64,000 bases of DNA from Oscillospiraceae bacterium (lineage in GTDB: Bacteria > Bacillota > Clostridia > Oscillospirales > Acutalibacteraceae): positions 45,864 to 109,863 of the forward strand of contig JAISJQ010000055.1 of assembly GCA_031261445.1 (NCBI GenBank), in the 5' to 3' direction. Positions 24,302 to 53,337 of this stretch are shown in pieces. The position numbers and the translations under genes are program-made. How positions within the stretch are numbered: the first letter of the stretch is position 1; each line of letters opens with the position of its first letter. The notes beneath the pieces are model-generated. The model was not told the DNA's origin. It did no database searches and saw only the letters and a program-made list of their open reading frames with translations.

Positions 24302-24419
24302 GCATGAGGGGTCAGGTATGAGGCGTGAGGGGATACGCGTTATCGGGGCAACCACAAGGGTTGCCCCTACAATGATTGGGTATCTGGCCACAACACGGGC
24401 GGCAGGTTGCCGCCCCTAC
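24302..24419. repeat. Composite repeat: family D heptads and two family E palindromes
   Basis: TGAGGGG-TCAGGTA-TGAGGCG-TGAGGGG (24305-24332) starts 4 bases after the M28 stop; GGGGCAACC...GGTTGCCCCTAC (24345-24370) and GGGCGGC...GCCGCCCCTAC (24397-24419) follow. Confidence 0.8.
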
Positions 24420-27650: not shown

Positions 27651-27826
27651 GAAATGAGGATTCAGGCGTGAGGATTTTGTAGGGACGCCAATCTGCCGCC
27701 CGTGATAGCAGATGCCCCATTGTAGGGGCGACCCTTGTGGTCGCCCGCTGTTGAGAAGGCAGAAGACAGAGGACAGAAGACAGGTTTTTGGGCGCAATTC
27801 TGCCCTCTGTCTTCTGCCTTCTCTCA
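27648..27826. repeat. Composite repeat: families D, E and B between convergent genes
   Basis: TGAGAAA-TGAGGAT-TCAGGCG-TGAGGAT from the mannosidase stop (27648); GTAGGGGCGACC...GGTCGCCC near 27722-27749; inverted CAGAAGA/CAGAGGA heptads 27757-27823 ending at the thrC stop. Confidence 0.85.
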
Positions 27827-29398: not shown

Positions 29399-29500
29399 TA
29401 GGTAATAGGTAATAGTGAATAGTGAATAGGTGTTGAGATTATGAGGTGCGAGGGTAGGGGCGGATGATAATCCCAACACCTATTCACTATTACCTATTCA
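29399..29500. repeat. Heptad repeat family F, two inverted arms
   Basis: TAGGTAA-TAGGTAA-TAGTGAA-TAGTGAA-TAGG, a spacer of about 45 bases, and the inverted arm CACCTATTCACTATTACC. The right end supplies the rnfB stop (minus strand TGA). Confidence 0.85.
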
Positions 29501-34596: not shown

Positions 34597-34782
34597 TCTA
34601 GATGCTAGATATTAGATGTTAGATGCTAGAGGTTAGATTCTTGGTCGCCGAATTTGTAGGGGCACACGCCTCGTGCGCCCGCTGGGAATGCAGTGTTGGC
34701 ATGGGTCAGCGGGCGGCAGATTGCCGCCCCTACGGGTGGATGGCGATTGGATCAGTGCGCCTCTGTATCCTCATTCCTCACG
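34597..34782. repeat. Composite repeat: families A, E, E and D
   Basis: TAGATGC-TAGATAT-TAGATGT-TAGATGC-TAGAGGT heptads (34597-34640); GTAGGGGC elements 34656-34733; reverse TGAGGAA-TGAGGAT words 34768-34781, which supply the Gx-transporter stop. Confidence 0.85.
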
Positions 34783-46769: not shown

Positions 46770-48305
46770 TTATTTGGACAAACCGTCCGCTTTTGGTGCG
46801 ACAAAAATCGTGGTGTAGGTGTGATAGATGACCATGCCCGGTCGCGCGGCGGCGGGCTTTTTCAGGGACTTTGCGGGGACGATGTCCACCGCCACTTTCC
46901 CGCTCTCGCGTGCGCTGGAGTGCCAAGCCGCCAGCGCGGCGGCCTGTTCGGTCACGGAGTTCGGGATTGCGCGATCCATGGCGCGAATGAGCACGTGCGC
47001 ACCGGGCACTTTTTGCGCGTGCAGCCACAGGTCGCCGCGGCGCGACTGCCGAAAAGTCAGCTGTTCATTTTGTGCCGCCGTGCGCCCAATCTGCACGGTG
47101 AACCCTTCCAATTCCAGCGAAATGGGCGCAAGAGGGCGCGTTTTTTTGGACGCTTTTGCGTGCGTGCGTCTCTCTGGAAGCAAGCCTTCGGCCACCAATT
47201 CGCCCCGCAAAGCGGCGATTTCTTCGCTACTTGTGGCGCGTCTTAAGGCATCCAGCGCATCGGCCAAATAGGCGCAGTCCGCCTCACCCGCCACGATCAA
47301 CCCGCGTAGTGCCTCTTGCGCCGTGCGGGCTTTTTGGTAGCGTTTGTAATATTGTTGCGCATTGGCGCTGGGGGAGAGGCGCGGGTCAGCGGGAATGCGC
47401 AAAATTTCGCCGCCGTTGTAGTAATCCTCCACGTCATAAAAAGCCGCGCCGGGCGTTAATTGAAACTGCTGGGCGAGGATCAGTTCGCCGTATTTTTTCA
47501 GCGTTTCCCGATCTTCCGCACGGGCGAGGTCGCACTTTTGGTTTTCCACACGCCGCTGTGTACGGCTGCGCAGTGTTTCGAGCGTTTGCCGCAGACCGCC
47601 GTCCAAGCGGGCGCGTCGTTCCGCCTGATCGCGCTGGCTGAACAGGCTCTCTAGCCGGGCAGACAGGGGCGGCAGTTGCCCGTCTTCCGCTTCTCCACAC
47701 GCCCACTTTTCCAAGATTTCGCTTCGCGGTGGCAGTGCCCGCGCGTGGTAGTTTTCGGGGCGTGGCGGGGGCGCATAGGGCACGCCGGGCAGGAGGACAC
47801 GCGCCGCGCGTCCCCGCGCGTCCATCTCCGGGTACACCCGCCGCAGGGCATCGAGCACCACGCCGCCTTGCAACAGTAGCACGTTGGCCCGCGTGGGGAT
47901 CAGTTCAAGACAGAGCGTCAGTGCCTGCGGGTCGCCCAGTTCGTCCGTAGCAGAAAAGTCCAAATACAGTACCCGATCGCCGTCCTCTTGTCGCACGGTC
48001 AGCAAGCGTGCACCGCCCAGATGCTTGCGCAAAAACATACAGAACATGGGTGGCGTGGCCGGGTTTTCGGGCGACTGGCTGATGAAGTGCACGCGCGGCG
48101 CGTCCGGGCGGGCGCAGATCAGCAGGCGCAGGGGGGCGTTGTAGGGGCACGCCATGGCGTGCCCGGCTGCGTCCGCACGTGCCGTGTTTTTCAGCACCAA
48201 CACCAGCTCCCGCGCACCGGGCTGGTGGATTTTCTCCACACGTGCGCCGACCGCGAGGGCGATTTCGTCCCGCAGATAGTGCAGCGTCGCGGCATCAAGC
48301 GTCAT
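46770..48305 (-). CDS. rqcH: Ribosome quality-control factor RqcH (NFACT family), with in-frame repeat insertion
   Basis: 511 residues, shorter than the usual 560-590. RqcH binds stalled 50S subunits and adds alanine tails. NFACT-N: KIHQPGARELVLVL, PPMFCMFLRKHLGG and DGDRVLYLDF with the Asp-Arg pair needed for tRNA recruitment. NFACT-R: SRRGDLWLHAQKVPGAHVLI. The middle coiled coil is shortened. Residues around AAGHAMACPYNAP are encoded by a 20-bp perfect GGGCACGCCATGGCGTGCCC palindrome of the GTAGGGGC family and have no counterpart in B. subtilis RqcH as recalled. ATG 48305 overlaps the flavoprotein gene by 11 bases. Confidence 0.88.
   Translation of the reverse strand: MTLDAATLHYLRDEIALAVGARVEKIHQPGARELVLVLKNTARADAAGHAMACPYNAPLRLLICARPDAPRVHFISQSPENPATPPMFCMFLRKHLGGARLLTVRQEDGDRVLYLDFSATDELGDPQALTLCLELIPTRANVLLLQGGVVLDALRRVYPEMDARGRAARVLLPGVPYAPPPRPENYHARALPPRSEILEKWACGEAEDGQLPPLSARLESLFSQRDQAERRARLDGGLRQTLETLRSRTQRRVENQKCDLARAEDRETLKKYGELILAQQFQLTPGAAFYDVEDYYNGGEILRIPADPRLSPSANAQQYYKRYQKARTAQEALRGLIVAGEADCAYLADALDALRRATSSEEIAALRGELVAEGLLPERRTHAKASKKTRPLAPISLELEGFTVQIGRTAAQNEQLTFRQSRRGDLWLHAQKVPGAHVLIRAMDRAIPNSVTEQAAALAAWHSSARESGKVAVDIVPAKSLKKPAAARPGMVIYHTYTTIFVAPKADGLSK
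48141..48164. repeat. Family E palindrome inside rqcH
   Basis: GTAGGGGCACGCCATGGCGTGCCC; the last 20 bases are a perfect palindrome. Same head sequence as the intergenic GTAGGGGC elements. Confidence 0.8.
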
Positions 48306-50728: not shown

Positions 50729-50847
50729 GTAGGGGCGCACATCTAGTCAGCGGGCGCACGGGGCGTGCGCCCCTACATGTCAGAGATCAGAGGACAGATT
50801 CGATCACAAAACTCTGTCCTCTGCCCTCTGATTTCTGTCATCTGATT
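50729..50847. repeat. Composite repeat: family E palindrome and family B heptads
   Basis: GTAGGGGCGCAC...GTGCGCCCCTAC (50729-50775) then inverted CAGAGNN heptads (50780-50847) ending exactly at the purC -35. Confidence 0.85.
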
Positions 50848-50904: not shown

Positions 50905-51612
50905 ATGGAAAAGCTCGCGCAACTCTACGAGGGCAAGGCCAAACGCGTCTATGCCACCGCCGACCCCGACATCCTCATCGTGGACTACAAGGACGACGCC
51001 ACCGCGTTCAACGGCCTGAAGAAGGGCACAATCAGCGGCAAGGGCGTTATCAACAATAAAATGAGCAACTTTGTCTGTGCTCTGCTGGAAAAAGAGGGCA
51101 TTCCGACCCACCTTGTGCAGGAGCTGAGCGCACGCGAAACCGCCGTGAAAAAGGTGGAGATCGTGCCGCTGGAGGTTATTATCCGCAACCGCGCGGCGGG
51201 CAGCATGGCCAAACGCCTTGGGCTGGAGGAAGGCCGCGCACTGCTCTGCCCCGTGTTTGAGTTATCCTACAAAGACGACGACCTAGGTGACCCGCTCATT
51301 GTGGAGTCCCACGCGCTGGCGTGCGGCTTTGCCACGGCAGAGGAGATCGAGACCATCAAGGCCTACGCGCTGAAGATCAACGAGCTGCTGTGCGCCTACT
51401 TTGCCACGAAGAACGTGGAGCTCATTGACTTCAAGCTGGAGTTCGGTCGCTACCACGGGCAAATCATCCTCGCCGACGAAATCAGCCCCGACACCTGCCG
51501 CTTCTGGGACATGACGACCCACGAGAAGCTGGACAAAGACCGTTTCCGCCGCGACCTCGGCTCAGTCGAAGAGGCCTATGAAGAAATGGCGAGACGACTA
51601 GGTCTACAATGA
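50905..51612 (+). CDS. purC: SAICAR synthetase
   Basis: 235 residues from ATG 50905 (AAGGAGA). Joins aspartate to CAIR in purine synthesis. [15 protein letters not shown] is the ATP-binding start, [20 protein letters not shown] and [22 protein letters not shown] are family blocks. Single-domain bacterial PurC length. Separate from other pur genes here. The stop TGA belongs to a CAATGAA heptad repeat. Confidence 0.95.
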
Positions 51613-51700
51613 ACAATTGACAATGTACAATGAACAATTATTGGTGGGTAACTGCCTGTGTTCCAATAATTGTTCATTGTTCTTTGTCCATTGTTAATTA
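51606..51700. repeat. Heptad repeat family C between purC and proA
   Basis: Inverted arms ACAATGAACAATTGACAATG and ...TTGTTCATTGTTCTTTGTCC with a central spacer; starts within the last codons of purC and ends 7 bases before the proA ribosome site. Confidence 0.85.
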
Positions 51701-53021: not shown

Positions 53022-53050
53022 TTGAATTTATGCGCGTTCTGTGTTATAAT
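53022..53050 (+). promoter_or_regulatory. tRNA-Ser promoter
   Basis: TTGAAT (53022-53027), 17-base spacer, TATAAT (53045-53050), 10 bases before the broken tRNA copy. No other promoter is seen before the intact tRNA. Confidence 0.7.
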
Positions 53051-53060
53051 TTTGTCACAC

Positions 53061-53100
53061 GGAGAGGTACCGAAGTGGTCATAACGGGGCGGTCTTGAAA
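53061..53100 (+). pseudogene. 5' half of tRNA-Ser, broken after the anticodon loop
   Basis: GGAGAGGTACCGAAGTGGTC... is identical over 40 bases to the intact tRNA-Ser at 53249 except one base in the anticodon loop (CTTGAAA here, CCTGAAA there). It ends right after the anticodon loop. Typical of an integration event that replaced one half of the tRNA gene. Confidence 0.85.
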
Positions 53101-53101
53101 T

Positions 53102-53272
53102 GTGTTAAGCGATTTGGAACACACCCACGGCAAAGCATTGAAACAACTGGATTTTTTGAAGTCCGAAAGCGAAAATCTCTTGGAGTTCTCTCCTGAAGTT
53201 CTCTCCGATTTCCATCGAGCGATTTTAGGAGTTCTCAATATCTCACTTGGAGAGGTACCGAAGTGGTCATAA
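53102..53272 (+). pseudogene. Short ORF fragment between the tRNA copies
   Basis: GTG 53102 opens 56 codons (VLSDLEHTHGKALKQLDFLK...) that run into the intact tRNA. The composition is protein-like, A/T-rich and unrelated to flanking genes. Probably the end of a gene of a lost mobile element. Too short for the ORF track; no function assigned. Confidence 0.3.
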
Positions 53273-53337
53273 CGGGGCGGTCCTGAAAACCGTTAGCGCG
53301 CAAGCGCACATGGGTTCGAACCCCATCCTCTCCGCCA
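53249..53337 (+). tRNA. tRNA-Ser (anticodon UGA)
   Basis: 89 bases with encoded CCA. Acceptor GGAGAGG/CCTCTCC, discriminator G, long variable arm (GCGCGCAAGCGC), T-arm GGGTTCGAACCCC. The anticodon loop is CCTGAAA, which puts TGA at positions 34-36 but C at position 33 where U is almost universal; the broken copy has the normal T. Class II form and G73 fit serine. Confidence 0.88.

Follow-up and report, generated by a model that had tools for sequence, protein, structure and literature searches.

The rqcH gene in the window (the whole stretch of 64,000 nucleotides that was analysed) carries a GTAG-headed REP within its open frame. The reading put forward here, with a probability of roughly 0.9, is that a GTAG REP entered rqcH in frame, is translated as GHAMACPY and is tolerated as an extension of a surface loop. 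The element is a GTAG-superfamily REP, belonging to a family which has expanded specifically in this species, and its presence in rqcH clearly adds one more case to a phenomenon already known, without introducing a new kind of element. It provides a well-supported case, outside the groups previously described, of a mobile palindrome made part of a conserved protein. The coordinates of the relevant features are collected in Table 1.

Table 1. Features discussed in the text. Positions without a prefix refer to the window, and prefixed positions to the named contig or locus.
Feature	Position	Strand	Basis or remark
rqcH, 511-aa RqcH/NFACT protein (NFACT_N + NFACT-R)	46770..48305	-	ORF, Pfam, solved relatives, fold match
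Site of missing RqcH residues, rqcH codons ~182-214	47664-47762		alignment with relatives
rqcH codons 40-60, loop ~14 residues longer than in 106 relatives	48126..48188	-	alignment, AlphaFold2
GTAG-headed REP GTAGGGGCACGCCATGGCGTGCCC	48141..48164	+	window sequence; 8 exact genome copies
Perfect 20-bp palindrome GGGCACGCCATGGCGTGCCC	48145..48164	.	RNA form: 8-bp stem, 4-nt loop
Intergenic REP, same family, GTAGGGGCAACCCTTGTGGTTGCCCC	24345..24370	-	palindrome scan
Intergenic REP GTAGGGGCGGCAACCTGCCGCCC	24397..24419	-	palindrome scan
Intergenic REP GTAGGGGCGACCCTTGTGGTCGCCC	27722..27746	+	palindrome scan
Intergenic REP GTAGGGGCACACGCCTCGTGCGCCC	34656..34680	+	palindrome scan
Intergenic REP GTAGGGGCGGCAATCTGCCGCCC	34711..34733	-	palindrome scan
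Two GTAGGGGC heads, opposite orientation, downstream of ParB-like ORF	50729..50776	.	
RAYT	C56:24038-24508 (L113:3012-3560)	-	E 2.9e-49 to RAYT alignment; only one detected in genome
In-gene REP, mutS	L224:12543-12570		
In-gene REP, mutS2	L228:19101-19124		
In-gene REP, radA	L230:5575-5602		
In-gene REP, nadB	L232:2438-2461 + adjoining bases		
REP-like 24-mer, nifS-type gene	L229:6124-6147		

The product of the host gene matches Pfam NFACT_N (E 5.8e-77) together with NFACT-R_1, and its closest solved relatives by sequence are the structures of B. subtilis RqcH (7aqc/7as8), with which the fold match agrees. The presence of both NFACT-N and NFACT-R domains in an RqcH fold identifies it as a member of RqcH/NFACT. 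Codons 48-55, read from the minus strand, coincide exactly and in phase with the 24-bp REP, which contains no stop codon in this frame. As the original prediction described, the stretch is a perfect 20-bp palindrome with a GTAGGGGC head (48141-48148), so that a short palindrome comes after an unpaired GTAG foot, the layout that defines GTAG REPs. The REP does encode residues of rqcH, but the peptide named in that prediction, AAGHAMACPYNAP, overruns the element at both ends, the REP itself accounting for the eight residues given above. No other perfect palindrome of at least 20 bp is found in the window, where first-order simulations yield 0.1. For the head word, 14 copies were counted in the window where 1.1 would be expected (shuffle maximum 4), and most of the remaining copies are likewise heads of palindromes.

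The window belongs to a 1.99-Mb MAG of 75 contigs with a completeness of 90%. Across these ~2 Mb there are 692 copies of the word TGTAGGGGC, compared with 56 of its reversed form, while four congeners hold 2-14 copies, which do not exceed their own controls; the family is estimated at roughly 600 copies. A GTAGGG head followed by a palindrome gave 345 hits at 335 places within 734 kb of stretches, part of which had been selected for containing the rqcH 24-mer, with four permuted heads giving 1-15. The 24-mer itself occurs exactly at eight places in the genome and at 19 when up to 3 mismatches are allowed (control 0). The repeats are therefore numerous and dispersed, as GTAG REPs are, and mostly extragenic, with about 10 of the 335 places, the rqcH copy included, inside a coding-like open frame. 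Many stem subfamilies are housed within the common GTAGGGGC...GCCC frame.

The stretch is absent from the relatives of the window RqcH. In an alignment of 106 relatives, ranging from congeners (identity of 54-62% across the columns in common) to Bacillales, the segment corresponding to residues 38 to 62 of the window protein, 25 residues long, is represented by 10-12 residues in 106 of 106, making this loop length unique among the 107 sequences. The codon-level comparison with four congeners likewise lacks the stretch, as do B. subtilis RqcH and the other PDB relatives. The original prediction had placed a short loop at this position of the NFACT-N domain in B. subtilis and had named REP-free relatives carrying the same residues as the observation that would count against an insertion; such residues were found neither among the 106 relatives nor in the B. 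subtilis protein. It had further anticipated that a structural model would show the extra residues as a loop, and this is what the AlphaFold2 model shows: residues 40-58 form a low-confidence loop flanked by strands 33-39 and 59-64, with pLDDT values of 54 for residues 41-50 and 73 for residues 51-60 against a mean of 86.9.

The net gain of ~14 residues (~42 bp) exceeds the 8 codons (24 bp) of the REP, leaving a surplus of 18 bp unexplained, and the alignment can alternatively be drawn with an 11-residue insertion and a second one of 3 residues. Given this excess in length, the event is more than a bare, clean insertion of the REP. Because even the closest relatives show no more than 54-62% identity in RqcH, its exact junctions are unreadable.

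Further in-gene copies were selected by open frame and codon usage and then by hand, leaving about 10. Their hosts are rqcH, radA, mutS, mutS2, a U32 protease, nadB, a nifS-type gene, an amylase-like gene, a folB-folK frame and the RAYT. The copies in radA, the U32 protease, mutS and nadB are in frame. Candidates at L068, L079, L080:10975, L218 and L234:12247 were removed on visual inspection, being palindromes at ORF edges or due to chance. Among the cases compared, radA offers the cleanest empty site: there, a 28-bp double-foot REP, directly before LVLIDSIQT, encodes VGARHDVPL and replaces ~13 bp, or four residues, for a net gain of 5 aa. At the empty site, each of the four congeners has four residues, as have three further members of the family, and two of the congeners read SKPG; with such clear empty sites, the outcome of an insertion could be read almost at base level. 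A net gain of 11 aa accompanies the REP of the U32 protease and one of 6 aa that of nadB in comparison with E. coli NadB, while the mutS REP sits in a linker whose length varies. Behind the nadB REP comes a partial inverted copy (GTAGGGGCACGTCATGACGTGCCC tgcggg TATGACGTGCCCCTAC), an arrangement that may be intermediate in kind between a pair of REPs and the double-foot form. The nifS-type gene carries a REP-like 24-mer with one mismatch over conserved codons, and comparison with PDB relatives revealed no net insertion at this word, which either arose by chance or replaced native codons. In-gene REP words are thus not always clean insertions.

A search of this genome with Pfam Y1_Tnp detected no transposase, a result that proved misleading because an alignment of RAYTs from relatives located one gene. 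Weak Y1_Tnp matches in two family members adjoin copies of TGTAGGGGC, and the search profile was built from an alignment of four such proteins. The gene product also matches the NCBIfam model REP_Tyr_transpos (REP-associated tyrosine transposase) with an E of 1.8e-15, below the cut-off. Its frame contains two inverted REPs, which give VGGDVHIAP and RGDVDIAPY. One precedes the HuH motif and the other lies between HuH and Y, with two more REPs just downstream of the gene; RAYTs of relatives carry in-frame REPs with other stems at one or both of these places. The genome thus encodes a RAYT with REPs both inside and 3' of the gene, as GTAG REPs do, with the in-frame REPs within tnpAREP that mark TnpAREP subclass 2.4. 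The stem of the internal REPs, GGGGCGATGTCCACATCGCCCC, differs from that of the rqcH REP, so another transposase may have moved the rqcH subfamily; the RAYT of one congener (G003) carries a stem, ACGTCATGACGT, nearly identical to that of the rqcH element.

What mobilises the family in trans is probably a RAYT, a REP-associated HUH transposase. Other RAYTs cleave beside the hairpin in vitro, with the GTAG helping in site choice (PMC8266576). In the proposed mechanism, the REP would be a tiny, non-autonomous mobile hairpin spread by RAYT/TnpAREP (HUH/tyrosine) via single-stranded DNA. The enzyme would copy or move single-stranded hairpins, the majority of which land or survive intergenically, and in this species the family has grown to its present size. 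One copy, presumably moved by a RAYT, would have entered rqcH at the NFACT-N beta-hairpin loop between the two strands named above, where it would have been translated and tolerated because it brought no stop and altered the length by a multiple of three. The original prediction that the element is mobile holds at the level of the family, to which the evidence applies: the excess of TGTAGGGGC over the congeners, the eight identical 24-mers, other in-frame copies with empty congener sites, and a RAYT bearing the same class of repeat.

That acceptance in a surface loop was also foreseen agrees with the modelled structure, and RqcH bearing the REP loop probably still works. The contrary proposal, in which the rqcH genes of this genus are decaying and the REP is a sign of relaxed selection, not a harmless loop that has been accepted, is unlikely but draws on several observations. 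Window RqcH lacks ~50-60 residues at 185-213 (NFACT-N/middle region) that are found in congeners and most relatives. The rqcH of congener G002 (L031, G002:C115:16500-20000) is broken by stops and frameshifts, which denotes either loss of RqcH in the genus or poor assembly. The window branch is also somewhat longer, with 57 and 54% amino acid identity to G001 and G004 against 62-65% among congeners. Because of the lost residues and the broken G002 copy, relaxed selection may have helped the REP to be accepted. Against decay, the 511-aa frame is open over its full length, and NFACT-R and the DR motif are retained. Moreover, the gene still looks constrained, since its codon positions differ from those of G003 by 0.29/0.27/0.60, the third about twice the second, and a like insertion occurs in RadA, a protein 78-83% identical to those of four congeners.

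Tolerated insertion also has to be weighed against a function for the REP, in which expression is tuned through an early mRNA hairpin, or through a protein bound to the DNA hairpin, with the loop as a by-product. This is very improbable. The stretch does fold as the 8-bp stem with a 4-nt loop, and REPs have been proposed as both RNA and DNA elements (PMC3733652); yet the segment as a whole folds in an ordinary way (z -1.5, with 18 of 200 shuffles equally good), and regulation of rqcH by an mRNA hairpin was set aside on these values. Chance insertion is favoured because the hairpin is present in no relative and in-gene copies occur at unrelated genes and positions. An origin of the palindrome by chance within a lineage-specific loop is practically negligible: the nifS-type word at L229:6124 demonstrates that REP-like words can occur over native codons without net insertion, but the exact rqcH 24-mer occurs 8 times against 0 in the control, and the length of the loop has no counterpart among the sequences compared.

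GTAG REPs within genes, RAYT genes with REPs in them and REPs with a double foot have all been published before (PMC3733652; PMC6006769). The GTAG superfamily, including its intragenic members (Di Nocera et al., 2013; PMC3733652), shares with the present elements the GTAG foot, a palindrome of 20-30 bp, hundreds of mainly intergenic copies, some pairs in opposite orientation and some in-frame copies in genes, several of them repair genes. The excess in repair genes published for GTAG REPs of other phyla is echoed here by mutS, mutS2 and radA, which make up 3 of the ~10 in-gene cases. The present family differs in combining many stem subfamilies within one frame and in having rqcH as a new host; the main text of PMC3733652 mentions neither Firmicutes or Clostridia nor MutS or RadA. 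TnpAREP subclass 2.4 REPtrons, described in 2018 as abundant in Cyanobacteria and Bacteroidetes (PMC6006769), likewise have stems with G-C pairs at the foot, double-foot REPs (GTAG...CTAC) and in-frame REPs between the HuH and Y motifs of tnpAREP, whereas the RAYT found here carries a second REP before HuH. This likeness is drawn from features and from Pfam/NCBIfam and alignment searches. Rickettsia palindromic elements (RPE) are also palindromic repeats translated in frame within functional genes, but those of R. conorii terminate in CGTC, a class of repeats without an accompanying transposase (PMC3733652); the rqcH element has a GTAG foot rather than a CGTC terminus, with a RAYT in the genome. 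The rqcH case is new, as are its occurrence in an uncultured oscillospiracean genus and the way in which the in-gene copies of this genome concentrate in a single stem subfamily.

Regarding this concentration, the ACGYCATGRCGT subfamily lies inside genes in 7 of 12 cases against 3 of 323 (Fisher 1e-9, this genome). The GCACG[TC]CATG[GA]CGTGC subfamily includes the 28-bp double-foot palindrome, which is open in one frame and gives VGARHDVPL on both strands. It is quite improbable that this stem is suited to genes, replacing native codons, and acts as a loop donor biased to repair or quality-control genes. The preference of the ACGYCATGRCGT subfamily for genes is weakened because copies of the same 28-mer in congeners are mostly extragenic: G003 has just one copy clearly within a gene, that in the RAYT, and the majority of those in G002 lie outside genes as well. 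With these copies and the nifS-type case without net insertion in mind, the preference was kept as a lead only, albeit a testable one on REPs that are better tolerated in, or targeted to, coding DNA.

Other repeats are present in the window. Short simple repeats of the AATAGTGAATAGTGAATAGG, GCAGAAGACAGAGGACAG and CAATTGTTCATTGTCC types are arranged as inverted pairs at 29399-29498, 27753-27823 and 51605-51699, one pair enclosing a GTAGGGGC (29454), and look like a second repeat class. Two 65-nt direct repeats (53043-53107 and 53231-53295), 83% alike, resemble the neighbouring tRNA genes.
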